From the NCBI RefSeq assembly GCF_000299335.2, contig NZ_CP004387.1, positions 2,852,001-2,916,000 of the forward strand: a stretch of DNA of 64,000 nucleotides. Direction: 5' to 3'. Each line of letters begins with the position of its first letter. Positions within the stretch are counted from its first letter, which is position 1. Of the stretch, positions 36,613 to 63,020 are shown piece after piece. The notes under the pieces are model-generated. The model did no database searches. It saw only the letters and a list, made by a program, of their open reading frames with translations, and was not told the DNA's origin. The DNA is from Isoalcanivorax pacificus W11-5 (lineage in GTDB: Bacteria; Pseudomonadota; Gammaproteobacteria; Pseudomonadales; Alcanivoracaceae). Made by a program: the position numbers and the translations under genes.

Positions 36613-37644
36613 ATGCAGGACAATACCATCCTGAATCTCGCCTATGACATCTCACGCATGACCAGCGAGAAAGTCGGCGCCATTGAAACCATTATGCAGA
36701 CCACCCGCATCCTGGCACTCAATGCCCGCATCGAGGCCGCACGAGCAGGCGCAGCCGGCGCGGCCTTCAGCGTGGTGGCCGAGGAGATTGCCAATGTTTC
36801 GGCGCAAATCAACGGCATAGCGTCAGAATTCCGGACGGGTGTAGCGAGCCATACCCGGCAGATCGAAGAAGCCGGGGAAAAGATGCTGATTGATTTCCGT
36901 GGACAGCGTTTGACGGACCTGGCCTTGAACGCCATCGAGATTATTGACAGGAATCTGTACGAGCGATCCTGCGATGTGAGGTGGTGGGCTACGGACAGCG
37001 CCGTGGTCGCCGCCGCGGAAGCGCCTGCAGACCGCGCCCTGCAGCAGCACGCCGCGGCCCGTCTGGCCACCATCTTGCGCTCCTATACCGTTTACCTTGA
37101 TCTCTGGATAGTGGACGTTCAGGGACGCGTCATCAGCACAGGCAGGCCAGACCGATACCCTGACGCGATCGGAATGGATGTGTCCGGCACTGACTGGTTC
37201 AACGCTGCTCTGTCGACGCGTACCGGGGATGACTTCGCCGTGGCGGACGTGAGCATCAATGCTGCGCTTCACGACGCACCGGTTGCTACCTATGCAACGG
37301 CCATCAGGGCTGCCGGCCGAACCGATGGCAAACCGACAGGCGTGCTGGGGATATTCTTTGATTGGGCACCACAGGCCCAGGCAGTGATGAGTTCAGTTCT
37401 GCTGGCCGCCGACAACCAGAGCCAGGCTTACATCCTCGATGCCGAAGCGCGCGTTATCGCCGGCTCGAATCTAGAGCACGCGTTATACACGCCATACCCT
37501 TTGCGCACCGAGGAGAAAAGCAGCGGGTTCTATATCAACGATCAGAGCCTCGTTGCATTTGCGCTGACGCCAGGCTACGAGACGTACACCGGCATGGGCT
37601 GGTACGGCGTGATTGAAACGCCGGTCAGCGGCCAGGCTGGTTAG
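36613..37644 (+). CDS. Soluble chemoreceptor-like protein with C-terminal Cache sensor
   Basis: The start at 36613 is preceded by GAGGAG at 7 nt; an ATG at 36595 is the alternative. The N-terminal 90 residues are a short methyl-accepting signalling domain (TTRILALNARIEAARAGAAG and AFSVVAEEIANVS, the conserved hairpin tip region). The C-terminal part, from about 135, looks like a Cache/PAS-like sensor (IVDVQGRVISTGRPDRYPDA...FNAALSTRTGDDF). There are no TM segments, so it is cytoplasmic, and the order signalling-then-sensor reverses that of standard chemoreceptors. Its end overlaps the convergent gene by 4 bp. Confidence 0.85.
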   Translation: MQDNTILNLAYDISRMTSEKVGAIETIMQTTRILALNARIEAARAGAAGAAFSVVAEEIANVSAQINGIASEFRTGVASHTRQIEEAGEKMLIDFRGQRLTDLALNAIEIIDRNLYERSCDVRWWATDSAVVAAAEAPADRALQQHAAARLATILRSYTVYLDLWIVDVQGRVISTGRPDRYPDAIGMDVSGTDWFNAALSTRTGDDFAVADVSINAALHDAPVATYATAIRAAGRTDGKPTGVLGIFFDWAPQAQAVMSSVLLAADNQSQAYILDAEARVIAGSNLEHALYTPYPLRTEEKSSGFYINDQSLVAFALTPGYETYTGMGWYGVIETPVSGQAG

Positions 37645-38462
37645 GGGTCATCTGCATCTTCGGGATAATTGAAATAGAAAGTGGTGCCGTCACTGCGTCG
37701 TAGCTGGACGGAAGCTTTCATGGTTGTCCTGAATGACTTCAGGGCCAGATCATCGCCTTCTTTTGCTCCAACATTATAACCGTTTACTGAAACGATGATA
37801 TCCCCAGGTTTTGCCCCGGTGGCCTCAAGCATTTCAGGGGAGAATCGTTCACCAATAACATAGCCTGCTGCAGAGTCTTCGCTGACAGGATAAATATCAT
37901 AAGTAGAAAATATCCGCATTCTCTCACGGCGATCCTTGGTGTCATCCAGTATATCCCCACCCCGCGCTCCGGAATCAGCCACACTTGGTTCCTGCGCGTC
38001 TTGACCTGATAGAGGAGCAAGATAGACCTTAAAATCGCCTTCGTTTCCCCGAATAATCACATGATCTGGCTGGATATCCCGAATGTAATACTCATCAATC
38101 ACATTCTGCCCAATTCCATATCGATAAGCACCATATCCATCAATCAAGACGACGGCTGAAGCGATAGCTTTATCATGCGTTTCAAAAAGCGCTATTGCTG
38201 AGAAATCGTATCTCGCTTCTTTCCGTTCTGGTACCGGTGTCTCCTGAGACGGGGGAGAAACCACCCCCTCTTCAACACTATCGGTGCGCCGCCCAAGTTG
38301 CCTCCCTACTTCCTGATCATGCACCACATAGTTTTCAGATTGACCACTATCGAAGCTCGCACCCTTATTCGTGCCCTGCCAAATTTCTCGGAACAAAATC
38401 AAAGAAGTGGAAACTAAAAGAAGCAACACAAGCAATGTTCTATTTATAGACATTTTCATCAT
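37641..38462 (-). CDS. GspC-like protein with PDZ domain (copy 1)
   Basis: The 273-aa protein has one N-terminal TM (MSINRTLLVLLLLVSTSLIL), a linker, an HR-like domain (ALFETHDKAIASAVVLIDGY...IQPDHVIIRGN) and a C-terminal PDZ domain (AGYVIGERFSPEMLEATGAK; PGDIIVSVNGYNVG). This is the architecture of GspC, the inner-membrane link of type II secretion that contacts the secretin GspD. No other gsp genes are in the window. A paralogue lies at 51694-52503. It is divergent from the FKBP gene, and the two probably share a promoter region. Confidence 0.8.
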   Translation of the reverse strand: MMKMSINRTLLVLLLLVSTSLILFREIWQGTNKGASFDSGQSENYVVHDQEVGRQLGRRTDSVEEGVVSPPSQETPVPERKEARYDFSAIALFETHDKAIASAVVLIDGYGAYRYGIGQNVIDEYYIRDIQPDHVIIRGNEGDFKVYLAPLSGQDAQEPSVADSGARGGDILDDTKDRRERMRIFSTYDIYPVSEDSAAGYVIGERFSPEMLEATGAKPGDIIVSVNGYNVGAKEGDDLALKSFRTTMKASVQLRRSDGTTFYFNYPEDADDP

Positions 38463-38655
38463 TTACACCAGCAACATCATATTAATATCAGGCGCATCAT
38501 TACATTCGGAACGCAACATGTAGCCAAACACAACTTTCTTAACTTATGCTCGACAGCGCGTCAAAAAAATTCATAGGAATCATATCGATATCATTCATTT
38601 GGCGCAATGTCATAATGAAACCATTAAAACAATATCGTAATAAAGAGAGGACAAA

Positions 38656-39369
38656 ATGAAGCATTTAGCCATCATCGCATCCATACTATCCATTTCCGGT
38701 TGTGCATCACAGGCCCCACAGGAGGTTGATACTTCATCGTCTTCAGATGTGACCGCCTATTCCTTTGGTATAGAAGCCGGGAAAACAGTCAAAGCTGGAC
38801 TCGAAGATAAATACATAGACAAAGACCTTTTCCTTCTTGGGGTACACGATGCCATCAAAGGTAATAATCTTCGCTATTCGCTGACCCCCGAAGAAATATC
38901 GGCAGCCCACAACGAACACAACATCTGGGCAACCGAAAAGAAAGAAGAAGAAGCGCTTATCGCTGGCGAGAAGAACGCACAAGAGGGATCCTCCTTCATA
39001 GAAAGTTACAGTTCGCGGGAAGGAGTACGCAGCCTGGATAGTGGAATTTTGTACACTGTACTAAGCGCTGGCGACGGCGCCTCGCACCCCACAGCAGAGG
39101 ATACCGTCGAAGTCCACTACGAAGGTCGTCTTATCGACGGTACAGTTTTTGACAGCTCTGTTGAGCGGGGCGAGCCTGTCTCTATTGAACTAGAGCGCGT
39201 TATCGAAGGCTGGAGAGAAGCAATCACTCATATGTCAGAAGGTGACAAGTGGGAAGTTGTCATCCCCTCACGTCTTGCTTATGGCACTCAGGGGCGTCCT
39301 CCAGCCATTGAACCTAACAAGACGCTTATCTTCCAAATTGAGCTGCTGAAAATAGCTGAAGAGGGGTAA
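38656..39369 (+). CDS. FKBP-type peptidyl-prolyl isomerase lipoprotein (copy 1)
   Basis: A 237-aa protein with the lipobox ISGC, an N-terminal helical dimerisation-like region of Mip/FkpA proteins and a C-terminal FKBP domain (VEVHYEGRLIDGTVFDSS; GWREAITHMSEGDKWEVVIP; LAYG; LIFQIELLKI). The FKBP fold residues are largely kept, so activity is plausible. It would catalyse prolyl isomerisation on proteins crossing the periplasm. The DsbC-like gene follows after 5 bp, and a paralogous pair lies at 61531-63020. Confidence 0.88.
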   Translation: MKHLAIIASILSISGCASQAPQEVDTSSSSDVTAYSFGIEAGKTVKAGLEDKYIDKDLFLLGVHDAIKGNNLRYSLTPEEISAAHNEHNIWATEKKEEEALIAGEKNAQEGSSFIESYSSREGVRSLDSGILYTVLSAGDGASHPTAEDTVEVHYEGRLIDGTVFDSSVERGEPVSIELERVIEGWREAITHMSEGDKWEVVIPSRLAYGTQGRPPAIEPNKTLIFQIELLKIAEEG

Positions 39370-39374
39370 TTTCG

Positions 39375-40106
39375 GTGATCAAGTATACAAGAAGGGTGTG
39401 GGTCCTGCTCCTTCTGGCAGCATTCCAGACTCATGCGCACGGGAGTGATGAGCACTCCCAAATAGCTGATAAAATAAAGAAAATCAACCCGAACATGACT
39501 GTCACCCACGTTCGCGAGACCCCCATACCCAATATAATGGAGGTTGAAGTCAACGGTAGTCAGCTTATTTATTCCTCCGAGAACGGAGACTATATATTCA
39601 CTGGCCAGATGGTTGATATATCGCAGGGCACAAACAATAATCTCACTGAAAACCGACAGCAAGAGATCAGGTCCAAGCTATTATCCGAGATGAATCCAAG
39701 CACTTTCATAACTTTCTCAGCGAAAGGAGATGAAATCGGTGAGGTATTTGTCTTCACCGATACAAGCTGCGCTTATTGTCAGAATTTCCACAAGCAGATT
39801 GAGGCCATCAATGAAGGGGGTATCTCTGTGCATTACATCGCCTTTCCTCGTGCCGGCCTGAACGACCCCGTGGCGTCTCTCATGGAGAAAGTATGGTGCG
39901 CCTCAAACCCCAGGGCCGCTCTAACGGAGGCCAAGCTGTCAGGGCGTGTAACTCAACCAGCCGTCCCGTGCCAGGCGCCAGTAGCAGAACATTTCCAGAC
40001 TGGCTTGAAAATGGGAGTTCATGGCACGCCTTATATCCTGACCACCGATGGGCGGAAGCTAGGTGGCTATCTTTCATCAGACGACCTTATATCCAACTTC
40101 AATTAA
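39375..40106 (+). CDS. DsbC-like disulfide isomerase (copy 1)
   Basis: The GTG start at 39375 is preceded by GAGGGG and lies 5 bp after the FKBP stop. The 243-aa protein has a signal peptide, an N-terminal dimerisation-type domain (NPNMTVTHVRETPIPNIMEV) and a thioredoxin domain with CAYC at 132-135 and the cis-Pro loop HGTP. Length and layout equal DsbC. Such proteins reshuffle wrong disulfides in the periplasm and need DsbD for reduction. The six-cysteine secreted protein encoded 460 bp downstream is an obvious candidate client. Confidence 0.9.
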   Translation: MIKYTRRVWVLLLLAAFQTHAHGSDEHSQIADKIKKINPNMTVTHVRETPIPNIMEVEVNGSQLIYSSENGDYIFTGQMVDISQGTNNNLTENRQQEIRSKLLSEMNPSTFITFSAKGDEIGEVFVFTDTSCAYCQNFHKQIEAINEGGISVHYIAFPRAGLNDPVASLMEKVWCASNPRAALTEAKLSGRVTQPAVPCQAPVAEHFQTGLKMGVHGTPYILTTDGRKLGGYLSSDDLISNFN

Positions 40107-40564: not shown

Positions 40565-41101
40565 ATGAACGCTATTTCTAAAGGTCTTCTCGGCGCAGCT
40601 CTCCTGGCAGCCTTTGGCGCCAGCCACGCTTCCCCGATCTATTACACCGTCAATGGTGGCGCGACTCAGCAACTGGATGTAACGCCGATCACTGATACCT
40701 TCACTGGCACCTCCACTGTTACTGCTGGCTTCTGTAACCTCGGCTGCACGCTGAGCGCTACCGGCACCCTGTCTGACAACCTGTCTGGCAACACTACTCT
40801 CTCTGTAAGCTCGGCCAGCACCAGCGGCAGCTTCGCTTGCAACACTGTAAGCCTGTCGGGTTTCCCGTGGGTGGGCTCAGTACCGCACTCCAGCATCCCT
40901 TCGCCGCTTGCTCCTGTAACCTTTACTCTGACCGGTGTAAGCGTTAGCTCGATTTGCGGCTCTTGCAGCAATCAGATTGATGTAACATTTGATCCTGCAA
41001 ATGGCGGCAGCTTCGTGTTCAATGGTCCGATTACCCCCAATGGCTCTTGTTCAGTCGTGGGTAACCTGACGAGCAGCAATTACTACGTTGCTACGCACTA
41101 A
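40565..41101 (+). CDS. Secreted six-cysteine protein, PraB-like (copy 1)
   Basis: A 178-aa protein with a signal peptide (LLGAALLAAFGASHA-S). The mature part contains six Cys in the pattern GFC-x3-C, one central Cys (SFAC), C-x2-C (SICGSC) and a late NGSC, and is rich in Ser, Thr and Gly. The central SGSFAC-N12-VPHSSIP region and size recall PraB, the secreted activator of alkane oxidation of Pseudomonas; this link is tentative. Two relatives are at 55385 and 56537. An upstream DsbC-like isomerase and a strong terminator downstream frame the gene. Codon use and expression signals suggest an abundant product. Confidence 0.75.
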   Translation: MNAISKGLLGAALLAAFGASHASPIYYTVNGGATQQLDVTPITDTFTGTSTVTAGFCNLGCTLSATGTLSDNLSGNTTLSVSSASTSGSFACNTVSLSGFPWVGSVPHSSIPSPLAPVTFTLTGVSVSSICGSCSNQIDVTFDPANGGSFVFNGPITPNGSCSVVGNLTSSNYYVATH

Positions 41102-41243: not shown

Positions 41244-42045
41244 TCACAGCGCTTTAGAGCCAAGGGTTAATGTAGCCGGATTGCGTGCCAACTGTCTCGC
41301 ATAGGCGGATGGCGTCAATCCACCCAGCCCACGCTTTGGCCGTTCATCGTTATATTCTCGACGCCATTGCTCCACGATCACCTGGGCATGCGCCAGACTA
41401 GTGAACCAATGCTCGTTGAGGCATTCATCCCGGAAGCGCCCATTGAACGATTCAACATAGGCGTTCTGGTTGGGTTTGCCTGGCTGAATGAGGAACAGCT
41501 GCACGCCAGCCTCATGGGCCCAGGTCAGCATATCCTTGCCACAGAATTCCTTACCGTTATCGGTGCGGATGGCCTGAGGCAGCCCCCGAGCCAGTGCCAG
41601 CCTGTCCAGCATGCGTATCACACCCATGCCGTTGATGCCGCGCTCAACAGCAATGGCAACCGCTTCATGAGTGGCGTCATCCACAATCGTCAGACACTTC
41701 AGCACGCGGCTATCGGCCGTGCGGTCGAAGACAAAATCCATGGACCAGACCCGGTTCGCCTCTACTGGACGCACCAAGGGACAGCGGTCCGAGATAGGGA
41801 TTTTCTTGCGCTTTCGGCGCCGAACCTGGAGCCCTTCCAGCGCATACAGCCGATCAACACGCTTGTGGTTCACCAGGAGACCCGCCTGCCGTAGCTTCAG
41901 GTAGATCATTTCAGCCCCGTATCGGCGGTGACGGTGCGCCAATGCAACTATCCGCTCGCGCAGCACCCCATTACGGTCTGGCGCAGGCTGATACCGGAAA
42001 GCGCTGGCGCTCATGCGCACCACACGCAGTGCCCGCCGCTCCGAC
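41244..42045 (-). pseudogene. IS3 transposase OrfB, C-terminal part, split by IS66
   Basis: The reading frame encodes an integrase-core transposase: [17 protein letters not shown] (HTH_21), [19 protein letters not shown] with the first Asp, DNGKEF with the second Asp, and [17 protein letters not shown] with the Glu, so the DDE triad is intact. The frame runs through [14 protein letters not shown] to the IS66 junction; the missing N-terminus (ELVRFMTSRGLSER) lies beyond IS66 at 44489-44545. The gene is therefore broken. Confidence 0.88.
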
Positions 42046-42128
42046 GTAACCGTCCGGCGAACTCATCTACCCGACGCCATTTCCGCCAGTAACTTAGGTG
42101 TCCACCTATTTCTAAGTGGACACCTAAT

Positions 42129-42467
42129 ATGAGTGAGATGCTTCCAGCCAAGACACCAGCCAAGCGCCGCCGCTATTCCCCGGAGTTCAAAGCCAATATT
42201 CTTCAGGAGTGCCAGGCCCCGGATGCATCCGTCGCCAATGTGGCGCTGCGCTACAGTCTCAACACGAACCTGATCCACAAGTGGCGCCGTGCTGCCGAAG
42301 TCAGTTCCAAGCCGTCGGTTCAGCGTGAGTTTATCCCTGTGCCGATGCCGACGCCCTCTGTGTCCGGCGCGGCGGAGGTAGTGTTCGAGCTGCCTGGCGT
42401 AACGGTACGCTGGCCTCTGGCGCAGATCGAGCGCGCCCTTCCCTGGCTGCGGACGTTGCAAGCATGA
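42129..42467 (+). CDS. tnpA: IS66 TnpA accessory protein
   Basis: This 112-aa protein has an N-terminal helix-turn-helix (RRRYSPEFKANILQECQ; VALRYSLNTNLIHKWRR), as in IS66 OrfA and IS3-type OrfA proteins. It is needed for IS66 transposition. The stop overlaps the start of tnpB by 4 bp. Confidence 0.9.
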   Translation: MSEMLPAKTPAKRRRYSPEFKANILQECQAPDASVANVALRYSLNTNLIHKWRRAAEVSSKPSVQREFIPVPMPTPSVSGAAEVVFELPGVTVRWPLAQIERALPWLRTLQA

Positions 42468-42799
42468 TCCGGGTCGATGCCATCTGGATGGCCACGGAGC
42501 CGCTGGATATGCGCGCCGGCCCGGATACGGCCCTGGCCCGTGTGGTCCAGGTGTTTGGCGAAGCACGTCCCCACTACGCCTACCTGTTTGCCAACAAGCG
42601 AGGCAACCGCATGAAGGTGCTGGTGCATGATGGCTTTGGCTTGTGGCTGGCCGCGCGGCGTTTGCATCAGGGCGGCTTTGTCTGGGGCAGGCTGAGTCAG
42701 GGCGAGCGTATCGCGTTAAGTCCTGAACAGCTTCAGGCGCTGGTGGTCGGTTTACCCTGGCACCGGGTTGGTCGTGACAAGGCCATTGCCATACTTTAA
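42464..42799 (+). CDS. tnpB: IS66 TnpB accessory protein
   Basis: The 111-aa protein shows the IS66 Orf2 signature: EPLDMRAGPDTALARVV, AYLFANKRGNRMKVLVHDG and GFGLWLAARRLHQGGF. Its exact role is unknown, but it is required with TnpA and TnpC. Translation is coupled to tnpA by ATGA. Confidence 0.93.
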   Translation: MIRVDAIWMATEPLDMRAGPDTALARVVQVFGEARPHYAYLFANKRGNRMKVLVHDGFGLWLAARRLHQGGFVWGRLSQGERIALSPEQLQALVVGLPWHRVGRDKAIAIL

Positions 42800-42876
42800 G
42801 CCGCTTGGCGCTGGCCTGTGCGCCGGTCAGCGCGCCCTCTCTGGTATCACTTCCGGCGGCGGCGTCTGGCAAGATA

Positions 42877-44463
42877 ATGGCCATGACGACACCGCCGCAT
42901 CTCGACCAGCTCACTGCCGAACAGCTACGCCAACTGGCGGCGCAACTGTTGGCCGATGCGGCGGAAAAAGAGCACACCATCGCTCAGCAAGGTCAGACCA
43001 TTGCGCAGCAGGGTCATCAGCTCAAGCATCACCAGCTGCTGAACGACAAGCTCACGCAGGAGCTGGCCATCCTGAAGCGCCATCGCTTCGGCAAGCGCAG
43101 TGAAGGCCTGAACAGCCACCAGGCCAGCCTGCTGGATGAACTGGTGGACGCGGATATCGCGGCGATTGAGGTGACACTGTCCAAGCCCGTCGCATCAGTG
43201 GGGGCCACCTCGGCACCGGCGAAGTGCCAGCCCAAGCGAGTCCCGTTACCGCCGGCCCTGCCGCGCACGATCATCACGCACGAACCGGACAACACCGAGT
43301 GCACCTGTGGCTGCCAACTCCAGCGCATCGGCGAAGACATCAGCGAAAAGCTCGATTACACCCCCGGCACCTTTACCGTCGAGCGCCATGTGCGCGGCAA
43401 GTGGGTCTGCAAACACTGTGAGCGCCTCACCCAGGCGCCAGTCCCGGCGCAGATCATCGACAAGGGCCTGCCCACCAGCGGTTTACTGGCCCACCTGCTG
43501 ATCGCCAAATACGCCGATCATCTGCCGCTGTACCGACAGGAAAGGATCTTTGCCCGCGCCGGGCTGGGCATCGCCCGCTCGACGCTGGCTGACTGGGTGG
43601 GCCGCTGCGGCGTGGCCCTGCAACCGCTGGCAGATGCCTTGCGTGAAACACTGCTTACGCAGCCGGTCCTGCATGCTGACGAGACGCCTGTGCCCATGCT
43701 GTCGCCCGGCAAGAAGAAAGCCCACCGGGCCTATATCTGGGCCTACTGCAGCCCGGCCACTGCCGCCCTGCATGCCGTGGTGTACGACTTCGCCGAGAAC
43801 CGGGCCGGCGCCAACGCCCGCACCTTCCTCGAAGGCTGGCAGGGCAAACTCGTCTGCGACGACTATAGCGGCTACAAGGCCGGCTTCCAGGGCGGCATCA
43901 CTGAAATCGGCTGCATGGCCCATGCGCGCCGGAAGTTCTACGACCTGCATACGGCGAACAAAAGCCAGATCGCCGAACAGGCGCTGAGACTGATCCAGCA
44001 GCTCTACGAGATCGAGCGCGAGGCCAACGCCTTGTCCGCCGATGAGCGACAGCGTCTCCGGCAGCAACGATCACAACCCATCCTGGACAGCTTGCACCAA
44101 TGGCTGATGACACACCGGCAGAAAGTGCCGAATGGCTCCGCCACGGCCAGGGCGATCGACTACAGCCTCAAGCGGTGGCAGGCGCTGACGCGCTACTGCG
44201 AGGATGGGGCTGTGCCCATGGATAACAACCAGGTAGAAAACCAGATCCGGCCCTGGGCGCTGGGGCGTTCCAACTGGTTGTTCGCCGGCAGCCTGCGCAG
44301 TGGCCAGCGTGCCGCCGCCATCATGAGTCTGATCCAGTCAGCTAAACTGAATGGGCATGACCCGTACGCGTATCTGAGAGATGTGCTGCAGCGATTGCCG
44401 ACGCAGAAGAACAATGCCATTGATGAGCTGCTGCCGCATCACTGGAAGCAGGGTGCCGTTTGA
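42877..44463 (+). CDS. tnpC: IS66 transposase TnpC
   Basis: The start at 42877 (MAMTTPPHLDQLTAEQL) is chosen as it opens into the coiled-coil N-terminus; an in-frame ATG at 42805 is less likely. The 528-aa protein has a leucine-zipper region, a zinc-binding region (CTCGCQLQRIGED; GKWVCKHC), and the DDE catalytic core (LHADETPVPML; CDDYSGYK; NNQVENQIRP). It is full length and should be active. The end lies 25 bp before the right terminal repeat. Confidence 0.93.
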   Translation: MAMTTPPHLDQLTAEQLRQLAAQLLADAAEKEHTIAQQGQTIAQQGHQLKHHQLLNDKLTQELAILKRHRFGKRSEGLNSHQASLLDELVDADIAAIEVTLSKPVASVGATSAPAKCQPKRVPLPPALPRTIITHEPDNTECTCGCQLQRIGEDISEKLDYTPGTFTVERHVRGKWVCKHCERLTQAPVPAQIIDKGLPTSGLLAHLLIAKYADHLPLYRQERIFARAGLGIARSTLADWVGRCGVALQPLADALRETLLTQPVLHADETPVPMLSPGKKKAHRAYIWAYCSPATAALHAVVYDFAENRAGANARTFLEGWQGKLVCDDYSGYKAGFQGGITEIGCMAHARRKFYDLHTANKSQIAEQALRLIQQLYEIEREANALSADERQRLRQQRSQPILDSLHQWLMTHRQKVPNGSATARAIDYSLKRWQALTRYCEDGAVPMDNNQVENQIRPWALGRSNWLFAGSLRSGQRAAAIMSLIQSAKLNGHDPYAYLRDVLQRLPTQKNNAIDELLPHHWKQGAV

Positions 44464-44545
44464 AAAGGCGTGATAGCCGGACGCTTACGCTCCGACAAGC
44501 CCCTGCTCGTCATGAAACGCACCAGTTCACGCCTGGCTGGCGCGC

Positions 44546-44815
44546 TCACCACTTTTTTCGCAGGGCTTCCTTGGTGATCTCGTTCTCAAGCAGTGTTTCG
44601 GCCAGCAATTTCTTCAGGCGGGCATTCTCGGATTCCAGCTCCTTGAGCCGCTTAGCATCCGAGACGCTCATGCCACCAAACTTGCTCTTCCAGAGGTAAT
44701 AGCTGGCCTCCGAAAAACCATGCTTGCGGCATAGCTCCTTGACGGGCAGCCCTGCCTCTGCCTGACGCAGAAAGCCGATGATCTGCTCCTCGGTGAATCG
44801 CTTCTTCATGTCCAA
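44546..44815 (-). CDS. IS3 OrfA (HTH_8 transposase subunit)
   Basis: An 89-aa protein opening MDMKKRFTEEQIIGFLRQAE, with a helix-turn-helix and a C-terminal leucine zipper (LKELESENARLKKLLAETL). It is the first gene of the IS3 element. In intact elements of this type orfB is translated by frameshift or coupling; here orfB is cut 50 bp downstream by IS66, so this copy is probably a dead end or an inhibitor. Confidence 0.9.
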   Translation of the reverse strand: MDMKKRFTEEQIIGFLRQAEAGLPVKELCRKHGFSEASYYLWKSKFGGMSVSDAKRLKELESENARLKKLLAETLLENEITKEALRKKW

Positions 44816-44977: not shown

Positions 44978-47900
44978 TTACTTAATTATCTCAGACACGT
45001 ATCTAATCCTGCTTCCCCCCTCAGGAATCTTTATAGAGGTCCAGGTTATGGGGAATGCAAATCCCAACGCTTCACCGTAAAGTTTTAACCCGAATGAGAC
45101 ATCCACCTCGTTTGAATTTTCCATATTTATATTCATTGTGCCGTCATCATTAAAGGTCACCATACCTTCAAGCTTTAAAGTTACAGGCACGCTAACCATA
45201 TCGGTCAATGTATCAGCCATACCAGGCGCCAACATATAGTCCCCGACAACGGTAACCTTACTCTGCAAATCTATAGCGTCGATATACACCTCAACATCAA
45301 CTGATATAAATGGTTGCCCGCCCACATTCCTAATGACTGCACTAATCGGTTGATCTCTTACACAACTCGTATTGGAAACTGGATCCTCAATACATCCATC
45401 ATCCAGCTTCGAGTAGCGCATACGCATGACTTGTGGACCAGAGTCCAAACCCAGTACGCAATTTCCTCCGCATCCCTCAAATGGTGCGTACATAGGTACA
45501 GCGGTAGACATGATTTGTCCCGGCCATATTTTAACACCTACACCACCGATAGACTCATCGTACGTCCCAATCTCTGTGATTAAGTCACTGGCGATGTACG
45601 TAAACTTCGCCTCCGGACAAACCTTGGGCTCCATTATTGGCAATGAAGGGTTGAGCACAGACTCAAAGCCACAACCTACCGATACAGTTGGTATCATGTA
45701 CTTCCCGAACGGGTTGACGGGGTTCACAGCCTCTCCCGCAGCAATCAGTTTAGCGCTGTTAACTGGCGGAATGAGCCCATTTGGGTCTTCGCAAGAAGGC
45801 TCAGAGGCATCGCATGCGTCAGGAACCAAAGGCTGCCCCTCTGCACCTTTTTCTGCTTCAGAGTATACTGCATAAGGCACGGTAAGAAGAGCATGGTTTC
45901 CAGAATGCTCCCTCGGGAAATTATTATCATGGATCATGTTCGCATTAGTATCCGATGAAGGTGCATTCAAAACTTGGATCACATCCTGCGAAACAACCCC
46001 TCCTTTAAAGTACTGTACTAATGGGTCCCCGCCACCAGACTCAAGGTTAGCATCTTGATAAATCAGGTCGATGCCCTGATATTCAGTGACTGTCAGTTCG
46101 TGAAGCTGCGTTTGTATGGGAAGCCCATCTTCTCCACAAATAGACTGAGATCCATCACAAATAGCCGAAGAGGATTTCCTATTCCCATTCGACCCCATTA
46201 CATAGCGATAATATTGCCCTTGCACCCACTCATCTGTTGGATAAAAGGTAATTTTCCGTCCGTCAACGATAACGTTACCATCCACAGAGTCAGCAGGGTT
46301 CCCACTTGCATCTACCTTTTCTACAAGGAAAGAACCTCCCAAGCGAACACTTCCTGGATCAATGTTTTTCGTAAAGATAGCTATGATAGGCCGGTTTGCA
46401 GGCAACACCTGCAATGGCAGGATATCATCAGGCAATTTGTCAGGCGTGTTAATAAGGGTGCCACCATCCGGTGTTTCCGTTCTGGAATAAACTTGATCAA
46501 TCCCACCCTTACATCTCCCAGTCATACCGGAATCAAGATTCAGCAAGGATTCATCCACCGAACAGGGAAACCCTGGATAAACAGCTGTAATCATTGGAGA
46601 CCTTACAATTGCGTCCCCTTCTCCCAAGTAGTTTAGAAAAGGAGTGAATGTGCTGTAGTCAAGATCCCACACATAGTTTTCTTGCGTGGTTATCATAAGC
46701 GGCATTTCAAACTCTAGAGGAATATCTTGTAGCGTCTCGTTACCTGAAACATCCGTCAGGCCTTTCTTAATAGTAATCTTGTATACATAGCTCTGAACTA
46801 TGCCAAGGTCTTGTTGAAATGAATTTTTGAATCCGCCTTCAGGCCGTATTATAAGAGCGGCCCCTCGACCCTCAATTTCAGCATCAACAGGAACACCATT
46901 TTCCTCCACAATCACCATCCCTTCCGTAGCACCGGAAAGGTCTATGGGTTTGCTGAACTGAATTATTACTGGATCTGTATTCATGAAACCGGCTGCGTCG
47001 ACACCTGGAATCCAGCTCTGAACTACTGGCGGATTCCCATCGACAACAGGTGTCGGAGGATTATCCTGATCCTCGTAAGCCTTCATGTAAAAGCTCAGAA
47101 CACCAGTTGCACGTTCTGAACCCAGCACATCTGGCTCTACAACGCCTACCGCGTTGATCACCATCTGTCCATTCTCGACAATAGAAGTCCCAACTAACTC
47201 AATATGCAGCAGATCCTGAGTGATCGCACCATTCGCTTGCGGGGTTTCTGTTGAGACAGCTACATCCATAAACAGACGTACTTGTCGTGGCGCATCGTCG
47301 GCATTACTGTAAGGGTTCGGCAGTAGGTAACCACTCGCGTCGGATATAAAGTCCATGCGGACCTTGCCAGAATCGAAACCCGCCGGCACTTCACCATTGA
47401 TCAGCACTTCGATAGAAGCTCCCTCAATCAGCGATCCCCGCTTTACACGGAAAGGTGTCGCATCCGGAAAATTCGGCACGAAAGCCAATTCTGCAGCTAT
47501 TATCCCGCTAGCCTGGGTTGCAGTCTCGTCCCCCAGAAGCAGCGAGGCCATCGGAACCAAGTTGATTGGCATGCCAGTCAGAGGAGAGAGCTCGCCGGTA
47601 TCCGCCACATCCTGCACCATCGAAACCCGCTCCCCCGTCCCCGGTGCAGTGGTATCCTGCGGCGTGGCCTTCAGACTCACCGCCAATGTATCGCCCGGAT
47701 TCCCGAAGCTCCCTCCCGGCAACGTCTCACCATAGGTACTGGTAATCCCGGTCGTAATATTCAACGAATACTCGACCCCGGGGGTCAGATCCTCTTTGGG
47801 ATCAACAGTCATGTAGTGACCGCTGATCAACAGGTGTGCATCGACCAGACCTCCCGGACCAACCAGTTGGACCGTTGCCTCTGGGCCATCACCATATTTC

Positions 47901-48442: not shown

Positions 48443-48501
48443 GTTGCCTCCTGGTAAACCTCTACTTAAACGTTCTTTCATATCCATAAAGAACGTCCGG
48501 C

Positions 48502-54271: not shown

Positions 54272-54601
54272 TCAGTTTATGTCCAGCATGTCAGGGGGGA
54301 TGCCCAAGGCTGAAGCGATCTTGGCTCGGGTTTCGGCTCGGGGGCGCTTAGCTTTTTCTTGCTGCGCATACGCGACCTGAGTAATACCAATGCGCTCGGC
54401 CACCTCGGCCTGAGTGAGCCCCAAATGCCGACGCCATGCGGCAGCTGGAGAGAGTGCGTAAACGAGTACGTAGCCCGACACTTCGTGCGGGATCAGATCT
54501 TCGCGTGTGTGGGTGGAAACATAGTCCCGATAGGGGATGACCACGAAAGCGGGTCTTCCGTCAGGACCATTAATGACCTGGACATCAGAATGTGCGTTCA
54601 T
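54272..54601 (-). CDS. XRE-family antitoxin
   Basis: A 109-aa protein with an N-terminal part like PHD/DUF-type antitoxins (VQVINGPDGRPAFVVIPYRD) and a C-terminal helix-turn-helix (HLGLTQAEVAERIGITQVAY; AQQEKAKRPRAETRAKIASA). It is the second gene of a toxin-antitoxin operon and overlaps the toxin by 4 bp. It should bind both toxin and operator. Confidence 0.85.
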   Translation of the reverse strand: MNAHSDVQVINGPDGRPAFVVIPYRDYVSTHTREDLIPHEVSGYVLVYALSPAAAWRRHLGLTQAEVAERIGITQVAYAQQEKAKRPRAETRAKIASALGIPPDMLDIN

Positions 54602-54834
54602 CGCGCTTTCTCACCTCCTCGATGCTGACAACCGGCCCCATCCCAGTCGAACAGAACCCGGTAGTTACCGACCCTGAGTCGGTAGCCATACAGGTGATTC
54701 TTGAGGGCCTTTACATTTCTGACCCCAGGCATCTTTGACAGGGTGGTGATCGCGTGAAATACCTTTGCGCGATCTACACTGTGAAGCTTGCCTGCCTGTT
54801 TCATCGCCCTTTTGGACCATTTGACTTCGTTCAT
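54598..54834 (-). CDS. RelE/ParE-family toxin
   Basis: The start at 54834 has GAGGG upstream and gives 78 aa. The sequence MNEVKWSKRAMKQAGKLHSV, then NVKALKNHLYGYRLRVGNYR and VLFDWDGA fits the RelE/ParE fold with conserved basic residues. Toxin-before-antitoxin order recalls higBA. It probably cleaves mRNA on ribosomes or blocks gyrase; the family alone does not decide. Confidence 0.85.
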   Translation of the reverse strand: MNEVKWSKRAMKQAGKLHSVDRAKVFHAITTLSKMPGVRNVKALKNHLYGYRLRVGNYRVLFDWDGAGCQHRGGEKAR

Positions 54835-55112
54835 GGTGCCCTCAACCGGCGATACAATAAGCATTATCAAGGAATTTACTGCCCCCCTTAAAGACTTATA
54901 TATCCCGGCTCAGGCTTTACCATTGACCGGCCTCTTTCTCTGACAAATGTGGGCATCCCCGTGGACGGCTAGGTGAGGCAGTCGCCCTAGCGCTGAAAGA
55001 GCCGCAAGGGCTGGTTTGATCTGAGCATCACATCCGGGAGCAGGAAAAGCTGGGCAGCCGGAACCCACGAAGCAGGTCGCAAAATGCCACAAGCGTGAAA
55101 ACCGCGTTCAAC
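54835..55112. other. Intergenic debris upstream of the RelE-type toxin
   Basis: This interval holds the toxin promoter region (near 54850) and further degraded sequence that may be the continuation of RAYT relic A. No usable reading frame or repeat is clear. Confidence 0.35.
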
Positions 55113-55384: not shown

Positions 55385-55918
55385 TTAGTTCCAGAATTCA
55401 TAGTAATTGGAACTTGACATATCACCTTTTAGAAAACACGTTCCATTTGGTGCAATAGGGCCATCAAAGGAAAAATAGCCTCCGTCCTCGGCATGGAAAT
55501 ACATATCCATCTGGTCGCTACATACTCCACATAATGAGTTTTGCTCGATACCACTCACTGTAAATGCTATAGGCGAGTCATTAACAGAAATTGGAGTGGG
55601 CACACTTCCACTCCAGGCAGTCGGACTGAATGTCAGAGTACTACAGAAAAAATTTCCGCCGGAGACAGGAGAGGAGAACAGGAAACTAGTTATTCCATTT
55701 GAATCTTCGCTTATTGAAACATCTGCTGACAAAGTACAATCAACAGTGCAAAACCCATTTCGCCACGTATAAGTGCCGCTGAAATGATCAGAAATTGGCG
55801 TGACATCAAGTTGCTCCGAGGCACCACCATTAACGCTGTAGTACAGAGGCCCTGATGCACTAGCACCTCCAGAGCAAGCCATACCGATGACAACCATTAT
55901 CAGGTTATTCAACTTCAT
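55385..55918 (-). CDS. Secreted six-cysteine protein, PraB-like (copy 2)
   Basis: The start at 55918 has GGAGAGAAGA upstream; 177 aa, equal to copy 1 at 40565. It shares LYYSVNGGASEQLDVTPISD with YYTVNGGATQQLDVTPITD in copy 1, the six-Cys pattern (GFCTVDC, FFC, LCGVC, NGTC) and the C-terminal SSNYYEF. A signal peptide ends in ASA-S. The divergence is large but the cysteine frame is fully kept. It stands alone, without a DsbC-like gene next to it. Confidence 0.75.
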   Translation of the reverse strand: MKLNNLIMVVIGMACSGGASASGPLYYSVNGGASEQLDVTPISDHFSGTYTWRNGFCTVDCTLSADVSISEDSNGITSFLFSSPVSGGNFFCSTLTFSPTAWSGSVPTPISVNDSPIAFTVSGIEQNSLCGVCSDQMDMYFHAEDGGYFSFDGPIAPNGTCFLKGDMSSSNYYEFWN

Positions 55919-55976
55919 TCTTCTCTCCATGATTAATATCAATATCCATTAAGTAGCAACTATCAGTCGACGAATA

Positions 55977-55998: not shown

Positions 55999-56231
55999 AA
56001 GGATGCCAGCTAAAGTTACATCCGCAAAGTACGGCAGTAATCAAGCATGATCTACCCGAATAAATTAAAAGCTAGATTTACTAATTTTACATCAATCAGA
56101 GAAAACCAATTATTTACCACCACCGTTCACAGAATGATGCCTCAGATTTTCCGTCAGGATCTGAAGCCAGAAAGATATCGCAATGATATCAAATGTAATG
56201 CGACCGGGCTCCACACAACAATTAGCCCGCT

Positions 56232-56536: not shown

Positions 56537-56980
56537 ATGAATACAACTCGAAGTATATTCCTTATAGCAATCGCAACGTCCATTCTAGGTAGCAAAGCAT
56601 TTTCAGATCCCTACACCGGCACAATCCAGGTAACAAACGGGTTTTGTGCCATGTCATGCAGTATAGCCCTGGACGCGACCTTCACTCCAAACCCCACTGC
56701 TCCTTATTCTTTATCGATAAATAGCGCCTCTATATCAGGCAATCCAATTTGTAGCTTCACATCACTAACTAACCTCCCAGCCATAGGATATTTTCCTCAT
56801 AGCAGTCTCCCAAGCCCGCTCAGCCCTATTGATTTCTATATATCGACGGGAGTCGACTCTTTCTGTGGAGGTGATTGTTCCGGTAGTATGATCTACACTT
56901 ACGACTTCCTTGGCGGCATTCAAATAAATGACGATTTCGGAACTACATGCTCTGTTACTGGGTCAGTAGTCGAAATTTAG
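56537..56980 (+). CDS. Secreted six-cysteine protein, PraB-like (copy 3, shorter)
   Basis: The 147-aa protein starts after TAGGAGGAAACC and has a signal peptide (IFLIAIATSILGSKAFS). It lacks the YYTVNGG leader of copies 1 and 2 but keeps all six cysteines (GFCAMSC, PIC, FCGGDC, TTC) and the HSSLPSPLSPIDF motif that matches HSSIPSPLAPVTF in copy 1. It is divergent from copy 2, with the RAYT relic B between them. Confidence 0.72.
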   Translation: MNTTRSIFLIAIATSILGSKAFSDPYTGTIQVTNGFCAMSCSIALDATFTPNPTAPYSLSINSASISGNPICSFTSLTNLPAIGYFPHSSLPSPLSPIDFYISTGVDSFCGGDCSGSMIYTYDFLGGIQINDDFGTTCSVTGSVVEI

Positions 56981-57830: not shown

Positions 57831-58193
57831 TCAATGATATCCATAGCCAAGCCGCTGCGCCGCAGCATTTAAACGCCTGTCACGCGTCCAAAGCCGAACG
57901 CCATCGGACAGCCTCACTGCCGCCAGCAAATGCATGTCTATGTATCCTAGCCCCTGCCCCATCAAGGCGTGGTGTTCGATCATATAAAGCACCTCATCGT
58001 CTGTAGCCACACGAGCAGACGACAAGTTCCTCATCAACGCCAGAATTGTCGTGCGTTGTTGCAGGTTTCCACACGCCAGCTCCCCGCGTATGAACGGGTG
58101 CATGCATACCTCTGCTCTATCCAGCAAGACAGCAAGGTGCTCGTTGCCGGAGCGCAAATGATCAATCCATATTGATGTGTCCGCGAGGATCAC
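57831..58193 (-). CDS. vapC: VapC-type PIN-domain ribonuclease toxin
   Basis: A 120-aa PIN protein: MILADTSIWIDHLRSG with the first Asp, FIRGELACG with the conserved Glu, and the C-terminal acidic pair in GYIDMHLLAA and LWTRDRRL. All metal-binding acidic residues seem present, so it should be an active RNase, typically cutting initiator tRNA or rRNA. It follows vapB after 2 bp. Confidence 0.9.
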   Translation of the reverse strand: MILADTSIWIDHLRSGNEHLAVLLDRAEVCMHPFIRGELACGNLQQRTTILALMRNLSSARVATDDEVLYMIEHHALMGQGLGYIDMHLLAAVRLSDGVRLWTRDRRLNAAAQRLGYGYH

Positions 58194-58905: not shown

Positions 58906-59370
58906 TTAACTTTTCTTTGGTGAGCGCCACTCTTTTTTGCCAGCCGCTATTAGCGCTTCCCAATCGTCGGGCGGGTCTCCTCTTCCAAGCATCTTCTCGA
59001 ACATCGCATAAGGATCAGATCTACTGCCTGCCGACCGCAGGCTATGCGTGTCATTGACCCAGGCATACACGATGGCCTTTGCCTTCGAGTCGTAGCGGAA
59101 GAACAAGCGGAACCGCCGCCCGATCTTTGCTCGCCGCCAGTGACGATATGCCGGCCCCAAGGTTTTACCCTGGCGGAACTCGTCGCGCGCCGGGTCGCTT
59201 GGCACAACATCCATGATCAACTGGCTCAGCGCCCGGAACAGCTTGACGTTGGCATTACTCTCGTAACCTAGCGGGTCGCTATGCTCGGCCCGCTCTGCAG
59301 CAGCCTGCAGCTTACGCAACTGATTGATCACACTCTCGTGAAATAACAGCGTCCATCCATGGTGCTGCAT
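58906..59370 (-). CDS. yhaV: YhaV-type toxin (type II TA ribonuclease)
   Basis: A 154-aa protein that opens MQHHGWTLLFHESVINQLRK and shows YhaV features: VVPSDPARDEFRQGKTLG, HWRRAKIGRRFRLFFRYDSK and VYAWVNDTHSLRS. YhaV is a RelE-superfamily RNase. It is one base overlapped with the PrlF-type antitoxin stop (TGATG) and is encoded second, the standard order. Confidence 0.9.
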   Translation of the reverse strand: MQHHGWTLLFHESVINQLRKLQAAAERAEHSDPLGYESNANVKLFRALSQLIMDVVPSDPARDEFRQGKTLGPAYRHWRRAKIGRRFRLFFRYDSKAKAIVYAWVNDTHSLRSAGSRSDPYAMFEKMLGRGDPPDDWEALIAAGKKEWRSPKKS

Positions 59371-59687
59371 CAGAGCGCCACTTCACCGGCGATGTCATCA
59401 TCAAGGTTCACGGGGTGGTCAATACTAGCCAGCATGGTTTTAGCCAAATCGTCAGGCAAAGCCTGAATATGCCGGCCCGCCCGGAGATCCGCCTCCAGCA
59501 GTGCCAGAAACGCACCAATAGCCGGATCTTCGTGTTCAGTGACGACGCGGGTCACAATCACCTCATCACCGCGTAAGTCGAACGCTACTTTGCCGCCGGT
59601 GTCGACACCCAGCGCCTGCCGGATGGACTTAGGCAGTGTAATCTGGCCCTTGGAGGTCAGCGTTGAGACTTCGTGAATTTCGGGCAT
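59370..59687 (-). CDS. prlF: PrlF-type antitoxin (AbrB/SohA family)
   Basis: The 105-aa protein has an N-terminal AbrB-like swapped-hairpin DNA-binding domain (STLTSKGQITLPKSIRQALG; KVAFDLRGDEVIVTRV) and a C-terminal toxin-binding part. It leads the prlF-yhaV operon and should repress it. The ribosome-binding site AGGAGAGC precedes the start. Confidence 0.9.
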   Translation of the reverse strand: MPEIHEVSTLTSKGQITLPKSIRQALGVDTGGKVAFDLRGDEVIVTRVVTEHEDPAIGAFLALLEADLRAGRHIQALPDDLAKTMLASIDHPVNLDDDIAGEVAL

Positions 59688-59729
59688 AACAGCTCTCCTA
59701 AAGCATTCTCGCAGGGTAAGGAATTTTCC

Positions 59730-60377
59730 TTACCAGGTCAAGACTGGGCATCCGCGTGCGTTAATACCCATATCTTCCCCAGAACACCGTACCCATTTCC
59801 TCCCGGTAGCCTGCGCATAGTCCTTGAGTCTTTCTCGCTGCCCTATCGCGGCAAGACGGCTGTTTACCCGAGGCCTCATATACCGCAACCAGGCATCCGG
59901 GGGTATGCAGCTATCCTCTTCATTGGCACGCTTGGCTATATGCTCGTTCAGGCATCTCATAAACCAGCTCAGGTCACACAGCCTTTCGCGCCATTTAGCC
60001 ACTTCCTGTTGTGCCCGCGCCGCGGTGGCGTCGTCCGGAGACTGGCCGGCTAACCAGTTGTGCACAATAGGCGGCCCGGTGAATATCTTCATCCATCGAC
60101 TTGCCACTTCCCGGTCGTCCCAGCCATTCGCCTGGTCCGCGCGGATGCGGACTACCAGATGATAATGGTTCGACATAACGGCATAAGCACAGAGATCAAT
60201 AGCGAATACCTCCGACAGCAACGCCAGCCGTTCTATTACCCAGGAACGACGATGCTCAAATGATCTGCCACTGAGAGGATCTTCACCACACAGGAAGGCC
60301 CGGCGGACACAGCGGCCAATGCAGTGGTAGTAAGGGGTTGATGCCAGCGATACCTGCTGGTTACGGGGTCGGGTCAT
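59730..60377 (-). CDS. REP-associated tyrosine transposase (RAYT), probably rearranged
   Basis: The start at 60377 has AAGGAGGAAGTC upstream and gives 215 aa. It begins MTRPRNQQVSLASTPYYHCI and keeps the HUH motif in MSNHYHLVVRI, typical of Y1 (IS200-like) RAYT proteins. After WFMRCLNEHIAKRANEEDSC the family normally continues with FWEGRFKSQ and AYVDLNP, which carry the catalytic Tyr; here the sequence jumps to a C-terminal-like part (LRYMRPRVNSRLAAIGQRER). I infer an internal loss and an inactive enzyme. A 65-bp repeat lies 44-110 bp upstream. Confidence 0.78.
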   Translation of the reverse strand: MTRPRNQQVSLASTPYYHCIGRCVRRAFLCGEDPLSGRSFEHRRSWVIERLALLSEVFAIDLCAYAVMSNHYHLVVRIRADQANGWDDREVASRWMKIFTGPPIVHNWLAGQSPDDATAARAQQEVAKWRERLCDLSWFMRCLNEHIAKRANEEDSCIPPDAWLRYMRPRVNSRLAAIGQRERLKDYAQATGRKWVRCSGEDMGINARGCPVLTW

Positions 60378-60420
60378 GACTTCCTCCTTGAAGTGCATCA
60401 CCAGATTAACCAAACAAAAT

Positions 60421-60487
60421 GATATCAAGTAGAGGAAATCGCTGATTCCTGTGTAGGACATTCGCTAATCGGTGGCTGTCCCTGATT
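60421..60487 (+). repeat. 65-bp RAYT-associated repeat, copy C1
   Basis: Begins GATATCAAGTAGAGGAAAT and ends GCTAATCGGTGGCTGTCCC-TGATT, in the upstream region of the RAYT gene. Confidence 0.8.
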
Positions 60488-60509
60488 ATTTCGATTAAAG
60501 GAGCTAACT

Positions 60510-60576: not shown

Positions 60577-60735
60577 ATTATCGTAGAGAAAAATACCGGG
60601 AACAAACAGCGCCGGACCGAATAGTGAATATCGAATCAAGATCCATCAACTAGTTTATACTCGTTCAGACAGCACATGGCCCAGCTTAGACCACATAGTC
60701 TCTCCCGCTACTTCGCTCTTCTCCCATTACACCTT

Positions 60736-61530: not shown

Positions 61531-62244
61531 ATGAAAACCATATACCTTGCGGCAGTTCTTATAGCTATTGGGGGCTGCTCGCAGCGCAGTGTGACGCTGA
61601 ATGACCTTGAGACAGACCAGCAGAAGGCCTCGTATGCCGTCGGGATGCAAATCGGGCAAAAGCTGGTCCCGCAGCTGGCCGAGGCAGACCTGGACAATGA
61701 GCTTATGTTTCTTGCCATGAGAGCGGTCGTTGATGGCCGAACTGATGAGCTTCTGATGGATGATGAGATGGCCAAGCAGGCCACAGATACCTATCAAGAA
61801 CAGATCGTCGCCCGCCTCGAAGCGGAACGTGAGCAGAACATCGCAGCCAACAAATCTGCTGGCGAGGCATTACTCGCTTCCAACGCCTCCAAACCTGGCG
61901 TGGTGACTCTGGAAAGTGGCCTCCAGTATGAACGTCTCTCTGGCCAGCCAGGCGACAGCCATCCCACGCTCGAAGACACCGTACTGGCGCGTTATCACGG
62001 CACACTGCCGGACGGCACAGTTATTGATAGCTCCATGAACCGTGAAGAACCTGCTTCCATTCCAGTCAAGCTGGTCATGCCGGGCTGGCAAGAGGCATTG
62101 CAGCTCATGAGCGAGGGCGAGAAGTGGCGTATCGTTATTCCACCTGAACTGGCGTATGGCGAAGAAGGGTCTGGCCAAAAGATACTGCCCCACTCAACAC
62201 TGATTTTCGATATCGAATTGGTTGAGATCAAACCAAGAGGCTGA
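61531..62244 (+). CDS. FKBP-type peptidyl-prolyl isomerase lipoprotein (copy 2)
   Basis: The 237-aa protein, the same length as copy 1, has the lipobox IGGC and a Mip/FkpA N-terminal domain (DLETDQQKASYAVGMQIGQK) better preserved than in copy 1. The FKBP domain follows (VLARYHGTLPDGTVIDSS; GWQEALQLMSEGEKWRIVIP; ELAYGEEG; LIFDIELVEI). It should be a dimeric periplasmic chaperone/PPIase anchored in a membrane. A DsbC-like gene follows 47 bp downstream, repeating the arrangement at 38656-40106. Confidence 0.9.
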   Translation: MKTIYLAAVLIAIGGCSQRSVTLNDLETDQQKASYAVGMQIGQKLVPQLAEADLDNELMFLAMRAVVDGRTDELLMDDEMAKQATDTYQEQIVARLEAEREQNIAANKSAGEALLASNASKPGVVTLESGLQYERLSGQPGDSHPTLEDTVLARYHGTLPDGTVIDSSMNREEPASIPVKLVMPGWQEALQLMSEGEKWRIVIPPELAYGEEGSGQKILPHSTLIFDIELVEIKPRG

Positions 62245-62291
62245 TCAGTACATACTTGCCTCATTCACAACTCAGATTAGGGATCAGCATC

Positions 62292-63020
62292 ATGAAGAAA
62301 CTACACGCCATTGTCATTTTGACATCATCTGTTATATCAACCTCCCTCCACGCAGACACGGTATCCGAGCGGCTTTCAGCAGCCTTTGAGGCTACCAATC
62401 CAGATATTACTGTTCAGAGCGTAGAGGACAGCGTTGTACCGAATATGAAGCAGGTGCAGCTCAGCAACGGGGAGTACCTCTATGCAACCAATGATAGCCG
62501 GTACATGTTCTCTGGCCGGTTGATTGAGTTATCAGGTACAGAGTTTACCGACCTGACAGAAGAGAAAATGCGCCTTGATAGAGTCGAGACGTTACATAAT
62601 ATTGATCTTTCAAAAAGTATAACTTTCCAGGCTTCCGGCGAAGAGAAGTACGAAGTATTTGTTTTTACAGATGTTAGCTGTGGATACTGCAAAAATTTCC
62701 ATACTCATATAGGCGAAATCGTTCAGGAAGGGATCACCGTGCATTACCTCGCCTTTCCAAGGGCAGGTGTTGCATCACCCGTTGGCGAGCTGATGGGCCG
62801 TGTATGGTGCTCGGAAGACCAGCAGGCTGCCCTGACTGAAGTGAAGGCCCAAAATAGCCTCTCTCAAACCCCTGTGCCTTGCAAAGCACCAGTTTCTGAG
62901 CAATATGCGCTGGCACAAAAGCTGGGGGTGCGCGGCACGCCTGCAATATTTGACGAGGATGGCAACAGCCTTGGCGGCTACCTCACCACCGAGCAGTTAG
63001 TGACAGCGCTCAATCGATAA
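62292..63020 (+). CDS. DsbC-like disulfide isomerase (copy 2)
   Basis: The start at 62292 opens a signal peptide (MKKLHAIVILTSSVISTSLHA-D). The 242-aa protein has the DsbC N-terminal dimerisation pattern (AFEATNPDITVQSVEDSVVP) and a thioredoxin fold with CGYC at 130-133, the classical DsbC active site, plus the cis-Pro loop RGTP. VHYLAFPRAGVASPVGELMG is nearly the same as in copy 1. It belongs to an operon with the FKBP gene. Confidence 0.92.
   Translation: MKKLHAIVILTSSVISTSLHADTVSERLSAAFEATNPDITVQSVEDSVVPNMKQVQLSNGEYLYATNDSRYMFSGRLIELSGTEFTDLTEEKMRLDRVETLHNIDLSKSITFQASGEEKYEVFVFTDVSCGYCKNFHTHIGEIVQEGITVHYLAFPRAGVASPVGELMGRVWCSEDQQAALTEVKAQNSLSQTPVPCKAPVSEQYALAQKLGVRGTPAIFDEDGNSLGGYLTTEQLVTALNR

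Follow-up and report, generated by a model that had tools for sequence, protein, structure and literature searches.

Why should one stretch of the Isoalcanivorax pacificus W11-5 chromosome (contig NZ_CP004387.1, positions 2,852,001 to 2,916,000; 64,000 nt, hereafter the window) encode two GspC-like components of type II secretion, two pairs of folding enzymes (an FKBP/Mip-type prolyl isomerase and a DsbC-type disulfide isomerase) and three small secreted six-Cys proteins? A preliminary description of the sequence proposed a dedicated folding-and-export route, and all the genes that it named were found where it had placed them. Our analysis suggests, with a probability that we put at roughly 0.55, that the locus is a dedicated type II fold-and-export branch for small disulfide-rich, Pra-like exoproteins and is coupled to alkane uptake. 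Coordinates are positions within the window, and matches to Pfam and NCBIfam/TIGR profiles were judged against the family cut-offs.

Two gspC-fkbp-dsbC units and their relatives

In unit A, the orphan gspC-like gene (37641–38462, minus strand) encodes a protein with an N-terminal hydrophobic segment and HR-like and PDZ-like parts. Its matches to TIGR01713 (E 9.8e-12) and Pfam T2SSC (15.9 bits, cut-off 27) are below cut-off, as is the TIGR01713 match of the housekeeping GspC; no GspD is encoded in the stretch, and the protein clusters with the cassette GspCs in the tree described below. Across a divergent promoter gap (38463–38655) lie, on the plus strand, the FKBP gene (38656–39369; PF00254, E 1.5e-31; PF01346, E 1.3e-15), whose product has clear FKBP_N and FKBP_C domains and a lipobox-like ISGC, and the dsbC gene (39375–40106; PF10411 and PF13098; NF008129, E 3.2e-41, below cut-off; CAYC active site). 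They are followed by the gene for a Pra-like secreted six-Cys protein (40565–41101, plus strand; PraA/PraB, E about 1e-4, far below cut-off), assigned as the unit A cargo. Farther on, between the two copies of the gene set, the minus strand carries two genes that the preliminary description had overlooked: aupA (48502–49806), for a FadL-family outer-membrane protein of alkane uptake (NF041571, E 2.1e-159, below the 840-bit cut-off), and an aupB-like gene (44978–48487), whose product has Big_5 domains (PF13205, E 5.8e-31) and 14 Cys in all. The FadL-family aupA comes first and the aupB-like gene follows after a 14-bp gap, as in Marinobacter, where a FadL-like AupA is directly followed by AupB according to the accessible text of PMC5989066. 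These neighbours suggest that alkane uptake is the purpose of the locus.

Unit B begins with a second orphan gspC-like gene (51694–52503, minus strand), whose product exceeds the cut-off of 27 for PF11356 (T2SSC) at 35.4 bits and matches TIGR01713 at about 1e-11, below cut-off. It also has a hydrophobic N-terminal segment, and its best sequence match in the PDB is OutC (6hcg, residues 72–252, E 7e-5), covering HR and PDZ. The second FKBP gene (61531–62244, plus strand; lipobox-like IGGC) was assigned from 38% identity to the FKBP at 38656 and from its placement in the tree, and is followed by the second dsbC gene (62256–63020, plus strand; NF008129, E 3.7e-44, below cut-off; CGYC). Both window DsbCs have DsbC_N and a thioredoxin-like domain and carry the CxxC and GTP (cis-Pro) motifs. 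Two further Pra-like genes lie between gspC and fkbp: one (55385–55942, minus strand) encodes a protein with 48% identity to the 40565 protein and no NCBIfam match of its own, the other (56537–56980, plus strand; PraB, E 4.5e-6, below cut-off) a protein with 40% identity. The six cysteines said to be shared by the three small proteins do align in all of them, and the product of the 55385 ORF carries one more, Cys23, close to its signal peptide. The two FKBP-DsbC pairs had also been described as matching in gene order. Both gene sets are indeed present, but unit B is split, with gspC at 51.7 kb and fkbp-dsbC at 61.5 kb, leaving 9 kb between them. Past the end of the window (L007) are a second aupBA pair and a further gene for a secreted Cys-rich protein, of which a broken copy is also present; these are likely to be the secreted gene and aupBA of unit B.

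The set recurs in relatives. Among 143 relatives searched for the secreted proteins, GspC, DsbC, GspD and FKBP, 46 of them in Alcanivoracaceae, a family of oil degraders, co-occurrence of gspC, fkbp, dsbC and a secreted gene, which the preliminary description had made its refuting test, was found in 11 units of 10 genomes (two units in W11-5, G000, and one each in G001, G003, G004, G005, G006, G008, G022, G032 and G034). Ten of the 11 are unbroken and share one order: gspC, a divergent gap of 97–223 bp, fkbp, dsbC, between one and four genes for secreted Cys-rich proteins, and a convergent aupB. The exceptions to this order lie in the window, namely the insertion sequences before aupB in unit A and the 9 kb between gspC and fkbp in unit B. 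Such recurrence in other genomes argues against chance. The aupA gene adjoins aupB in 9 of the 11 units, being 692 bp away in G008 and cut by a contig end in G032, and is not beside aupB in the units of G022 and G034. In these two lineage B genomes, aupB genes lacking an adjacent aupA were noted (L068, 18387–19976, with L069, 1–2118; L071, 8481–12260), so that AupB may also act with AupA from elsewhere. A further DsbC lies beside a piece of aupA in G040, with no gspC in the 3 kb read. AupA was found in 1 of 369 genomes of the class (W11-5 itself) and 45 of 390 of the order; W11-5 has four aupA genes. A scan of the genome contigs with one protein returned one locus.

The two units do not represent a recent copy of one another, as the phrase "duplicated cassette" had implied. 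In trees, the foldase-linked GspC, DsbC and FKBP split into the same two lineages, A (the first window copy with G004, G001 and G005) and B (the second copy with G003, G006, G008, G022, G032 and G034). Since the window copies sit in separate lineages, local tandem duplication was ruled out, and the identities between them (GspC-like 33%, FKBP 38%, DsbC 40%, the three small proteins 32–48%) indicate that any duplication is old. The cassette GspC, DsbC and FKBP each stand apart from their housekeeping copies, with one label change per tree and bootstrap values of 58–81; several orphan GspCs without foldases are on long branches, and their position is unsure. Distances within the cassette are strongly correlated over the 11 units (GspC-FKBP 0.94, GspC-DsbC 0.93, FKBP-DsbC 0.98). 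Housekeeping copies correlate with each other at 0.96–0.98, as expected from one species history, and cassette and housekeeping distances agree poorly (r 0.14–0.47, 9 genomes). The cassette seems to travel and evolve together. With a G+C content of 46–58%, compared with 61–68% around housekeeping gspC in these genomes, it resembles DNA gained horizontally.

Pra-like secreted proteins and the orphan GspC

The ten unbroken units have 18 cargo genes directly after dsbC, 4 encoding proteins with six Cys (lineage A) and 14 with ten (lineage B), and all ten Cys are conserved across the latter. In hhalign comparisons, the four-, six- and ten-Cys sets match each other with probabilities of 97–99.7. 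Compared with a set of 11 Pra sequences (6 from f21 genomes with PraB above cut-off and 5 lower-scoring ones, 4 from genus g8 and 1 from f16), the six-Cys set gave a probability of 97, the ten-Cys set 92 and the four-Cys set 98, versus 0.1–0.3 for six controls; the family of the 40565 protein is thus among those that match. Judged by these profiles, the cargo proteins are distant relatives of Pra, which is extracellular. Pra is described in the accessible part of PMC5410065 as an alkane-induced emulsifier. The window proteins stay far from membership in PraA or PraB (NF041561, NF041562), reaching at most 26.4 bits against cut-offs of 120–150. What the two kinds share is a common core in small secreted Cys proteins and the company of hydrocarbon genes: in G613, a genome of another family (f21) that probably belongs to Pseudomonas, a PF00487 (FA_desaturase) gene, two Pra genes and a FadL-family gene follow one another. 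From its histidine motifs, we take the PF00487 gene to be AlkB-like. Three more f21 genomes resemble this order, and in G594 PraB is accompanied by a FadL-family gene only. Unlike Pra, the cargo proteins have 6–10 Cys and are flanked by gspC-fkbp-dsbC. The AlphaFold2 (AF2) model of the 40565 protein (pLDDT 80) is all-beta and matched no PDB structure at E <= 0.001, nor did the sequence match any in the PDB; a nitrobindin fold (best match E 0.031, TM about 0.36) was too weak to be used. The Cys-rich protein encoded past the window end is closest to the four-Cys set (hhalign probability 93; six-Cys set 75, ten-Cys set 47). Outside the island, W11-5 has a distant Pra-like gene (C1:402065–402412, L087) with no aupAB or gspC within 20 kb.

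The cargo genes are associated with orphan gspC. Of 22 orphan-gspC loci that were fetched, 19 contain a cargo gene (L061, L078 and L080 do not), a proportion that is partly by construction, the cargo models having been built partly from these loci. None of 21 aupAB loci fetched regardless of cargo contained one, nor did any of 33 housekeeping loci, a weak control as most such loci are short. In the 46 family genomes, cargo detected with the A1 profile and orphan gspC occurred together in 15, cargo only in 3, orphan gspC only in 4 and neither in 24 (Fisher p 6e-6, a value too small owing to shared ancestry). The stronger notion that Pra-like genes track orphan gspC rather than aupAB was dropped, since six loci have aupA or aupB and no orphan gspC.

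As the preliminary description had asked whether a complete gsp locus exists elsewhere, the genome was searched and a housekeeping set was found, with gspC-gspD at 637–640 kb and the nine genes from gspE to gspM together at 2.02 Mb. GspC and GspH of this set are below the NCBIfam cut-offs, and one GspE in the genome is over its cut-off. With a single housekeeping machine found, the orphan GspCs would have just one to work with. Across the 46 family genomes, 25 GspC matches in 19 genomes, two of them fragments, are without an adjacent GspD among the GspD matches listed. When the genome's own GspD, GspE and GspL were compared (tblastn) with 24 orphan-locus stretches, no match was obtained, and the GspD query matched at 11 of 11 housekeeping gspC loci used as a control. 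An aupA or aupB gene is within 10 kb of 22 of the 25 orphan gspC matches; the other three are G002 C1:1005458, G026 C21:53180 (4 kb from a contig end) and a fragment on the 6.7-kb contig G024 C41. Orphan GspCs resemble the housekeeping form in keeping the hydrophobic N-terminus and the HR-like and PDZ parts, and differ in not being encoded beside gspD. The active sites of the cassette DsbCs vary (CAYC, CNYC, CPYC, CGFC and CGYC in 12 rows), unlike the CGYC in 11 of 11 housekeeping rows, which hints at tuned redox behaviour.

Shared palindrome and neighbouring genes

With <=2 mismatches allowed, the ten loci that carry fkbp-dsbC units contain 17 sites of a palindrome, TGAYRTCA-N3-TGAYRTCA (8-3-8). 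Sixteen of the 17 are in promoter gaps (gspC/fkbp, dsbC/cargo, cargo/cargo or aupA), a position that is partly by construction because 33 of these gaps had been scanned to derive the palindrome. Resampled sequence gave a mean of 0.58 sites and a maximum of 3, and 503 kb of control loci held 1 site, located between aupB and the next aupA (L144). The remaining 15 stretches, orphan or island, contained none. In the window, one site is upstream of aupA (50335–50353, 1 mismatch) and another lies between the divergent six-Cys genes (56173–56191, 2 mismatches). LysR-type regulator genes adjoin aupA, often divergently, in L062, L066, L072, L073 and L007, the last confirmed by Pfam and the others by sequence likeness alone.

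Between the two units, a gene at 50824–51642 (plus strand) encodes a secreted protein of 272 aa with 5 Cys and no family match in profile searches. Homologues are present in G038 (L080, 9840–10712 and 12306–13118), beside another orphan gspC and aupAB, and this family is perhaps a second kind of cargo.

Transposase genes (IS3-like, IS66 and IS200-like) interrupt the locus at 41244–44815, 59730–60461 and 63253–63918. The first stretch, IS3-like and IS66 insertion sequences between the unit A cargo and aupB, is not part of the system; Pfam matches to rve and IS66 were obtained for 41244–42023 and 42805–44463, the segment 44546–44815 was assigned by eye, and in the relative G004 the corresponding gap measures 1.3 kb. 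The gene at 59730–60461 had no Pfam match and by eye is like a longer copy in L007. Genes of toxin-antitoxin type are present between the halves of unit B at 54272–54870, 57831–58193 and 58906–59687, where Pfam detected a helix-turn-helix (HTH) protein with a partner lacking a Pfam match, a PIN domain and YhaV/PrlF, and a gene like those of S-adenosylmethionine (SAM)-dependent RNA methyltransferases (PF04013) lies inside the island at 53229–53825. A defence island as the main content was rejected, since only ordinary toxin-antitoxin genes, insertion sequences and this methyltransferase-like gene stand between the copies. A DUF192 gene at 33813–34316 has look-alikes, identified by eye, near the orphan-gspC/aupAB locus in L067, L071, L072, L073, L074 and L168, which hints at a fixed chromosomal site of the locus.

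Role of the locus

The anatomy and shared history given above support well the idea that an alternative GspC comes with a dedicated set of folding enzymes, and the locus most likely serves type II export of the Pra-like proteins. In the proposed route, the Pra-like proteins, whose N-termini are signal-like, would be carried by Sec into the periplasm, where the lipobox-bearing FKBP and the DsbC, enzymes recognized by their domains, would fold them and correct their disulfides. The orphan GspC, a predicted inner-membrane protein with HR and PDZ parts, may then replace or supplement the housekeeping GspC and recruit the cargo. Outside the cell, the cargo may bind or emulsify alkanes as Pra does, and AupA and AupB would import them, by analogy with Marinobacter. 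A precedent for an extra type II subunit encoded away from the main gsp locus is found in P. aeruginosa, where XphA/XqhA (PaQa), encoded outside the main xcp locus, form a functional hybrid with the Xcp machine according to the available text of PMC6567927; the title of Michel 2007, cited there, identifies them as GspC/GspD. The present loci differ in having GspC alone, with no GspD match, and in carrying their own foldases, cargo genes and uptake operon. They differ likewise from 14 aupAB loci of other families, which have no adjacent gspC-foldase-cargo set. No description of such a locus was found in searches of the open literature, subscription papers being largely outside this coverage.

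Several observations weigh against the export reading. The motif W-x-(L/I/F)FG between the transmembrane segment and HR, which we infer from these rows to be a defining GspC feature, was seen in all 11 housekeeping GspC rows and in 8 of the 10 other orphan rows (one of the two without it is a 114-aa fragment), but none of the 13 GspCs in the foldase-linked branch has it. Its loss may reflect a changed contact, perhaps for cargo choice, or a departure from secretion. Many GspCs of this branch, including both in the window, have short N-tails, and the AF2 model of the orphan GspC alone (3 sequences) had a pLDDT of 43 and was not used. The orphan GspC of G002 (C1:1005458) is near an FKBP gene and has no aupAB or cargo within 10 kb, and conversely the 21 fetched aupAB loci have no cassette. 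A Pra-like gene accompanies aupA or aupB without orphan gspC in L082, L083, L084, L085, L086 and L174, loci fetched because of their cargo match; of the genomes behind them, G002, G019, G026 and G036 have an orphan gspC elsewhere and in G033 none was found. Pra-like genes were also present in G023, G033, G013, G018, G021, G025 and G027, where no orphan gspC was found, and at 67–76 bits (NF041562) in six genus g8 genomes in which only a housekeeping gspC was found. This GspC is therefore not required by every Pra-like protein. As to regulation, in addition to the way in which the palindrome was derived, it was not found at <=2 mismatches in G022, G032 and G034, and the gspC gap of W11-5 itself holds a weak copy with 3 mismatches (38472). 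Genome-wide, five sites have <=1 mismatch, one in the locus and four elsewhere without a clear alkane link. The export part of the original proposal is thus less secure than its folding part, the foldase-linked GspCs having lost the motif and cargo relatives occurring without orphan gspC.

These same points could mean that the orphan GspC has left type II secretion and acts as an inner-membrane PDZ scaffold gathering FKBP, DsbC and Pra-like proteins, the last serving as alkane carriers in the periplasm between AupA and AupB. The missing motif in all 13 foldase-linked rows would fit, as would the short N-tail, a branch separate from the housekeeping GspC (modest support), the 24 stretches lacking GspD, GspE or GspL, the Pra-like genes that adjoin aupAB without gspC, and the location of Marinobacter AupA and AupB in outer and inner membrane given in the accessible text of PMC5989066. 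We nevertheless consider such a scaffold unlikely, since the HR part is kept in the 51694 protein, whose match to OutC covers both HR and PDZ, the motif is kept in the 8 of 10 other orphan GspC rows, most of them beside the same cargo superfamily, and Pra is described as an emulsifier (PMC5410065, accessible part).

A mere gene-trading island that has collected unrelated hydrocarbon genes is a distinctly less probable account. It would explain the low G+C content, the IS66, IS3-like, IS200-like and toxin-antitoxin genes in the window, and the poor fit of the cassette history to that of housekeeping genes; order and strands are, however, identical in the 10 unbroken units, the three cassette genes have congruent histories, and the palindrome is shared. 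Least probable, in our view, is that FKBP and DsbC serve a Cys-rich AupB and that the small proteins are incidental neighbours. Full-length AupBs beside cassettes do have 7–15 Cys, but those in cassette-free loci are similar with 6–16 (the lowest from a cut gene), dsbC is trailed in the same direction by Pra-like genes and not by aupB, and 6 or 10 aligned Cys are found in all 18 cargo genes behind dsbC in the unbroken units.

To return to the fold-and-export branch, XcpR has a role in dodecane degradation by Acinetobacter, according to the accessible part of PMC5861075. It is conceivable, though we hold this more tentatively and at somewhat under even odds, that an interchangeable GspC and its own foldases reprogramme one machine for surfactant-like exoproteins in one regulon with an alkane importer, and that these exoproteins are of the same kind as the unidentified type II-secreted protein that growth on alkanes reportedly requires. 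The locus supplies candidates, in Alcanivoracaceae, for the exported proteins needed on oil, together with their likely folding helpers and importer, and with these named the question can be reduced to a few gene deletions. If the proposal is true, swapping the GspC connector could alter the set of proteins that a type II machine exports, and this would bear on the question of how cargo is chosen.

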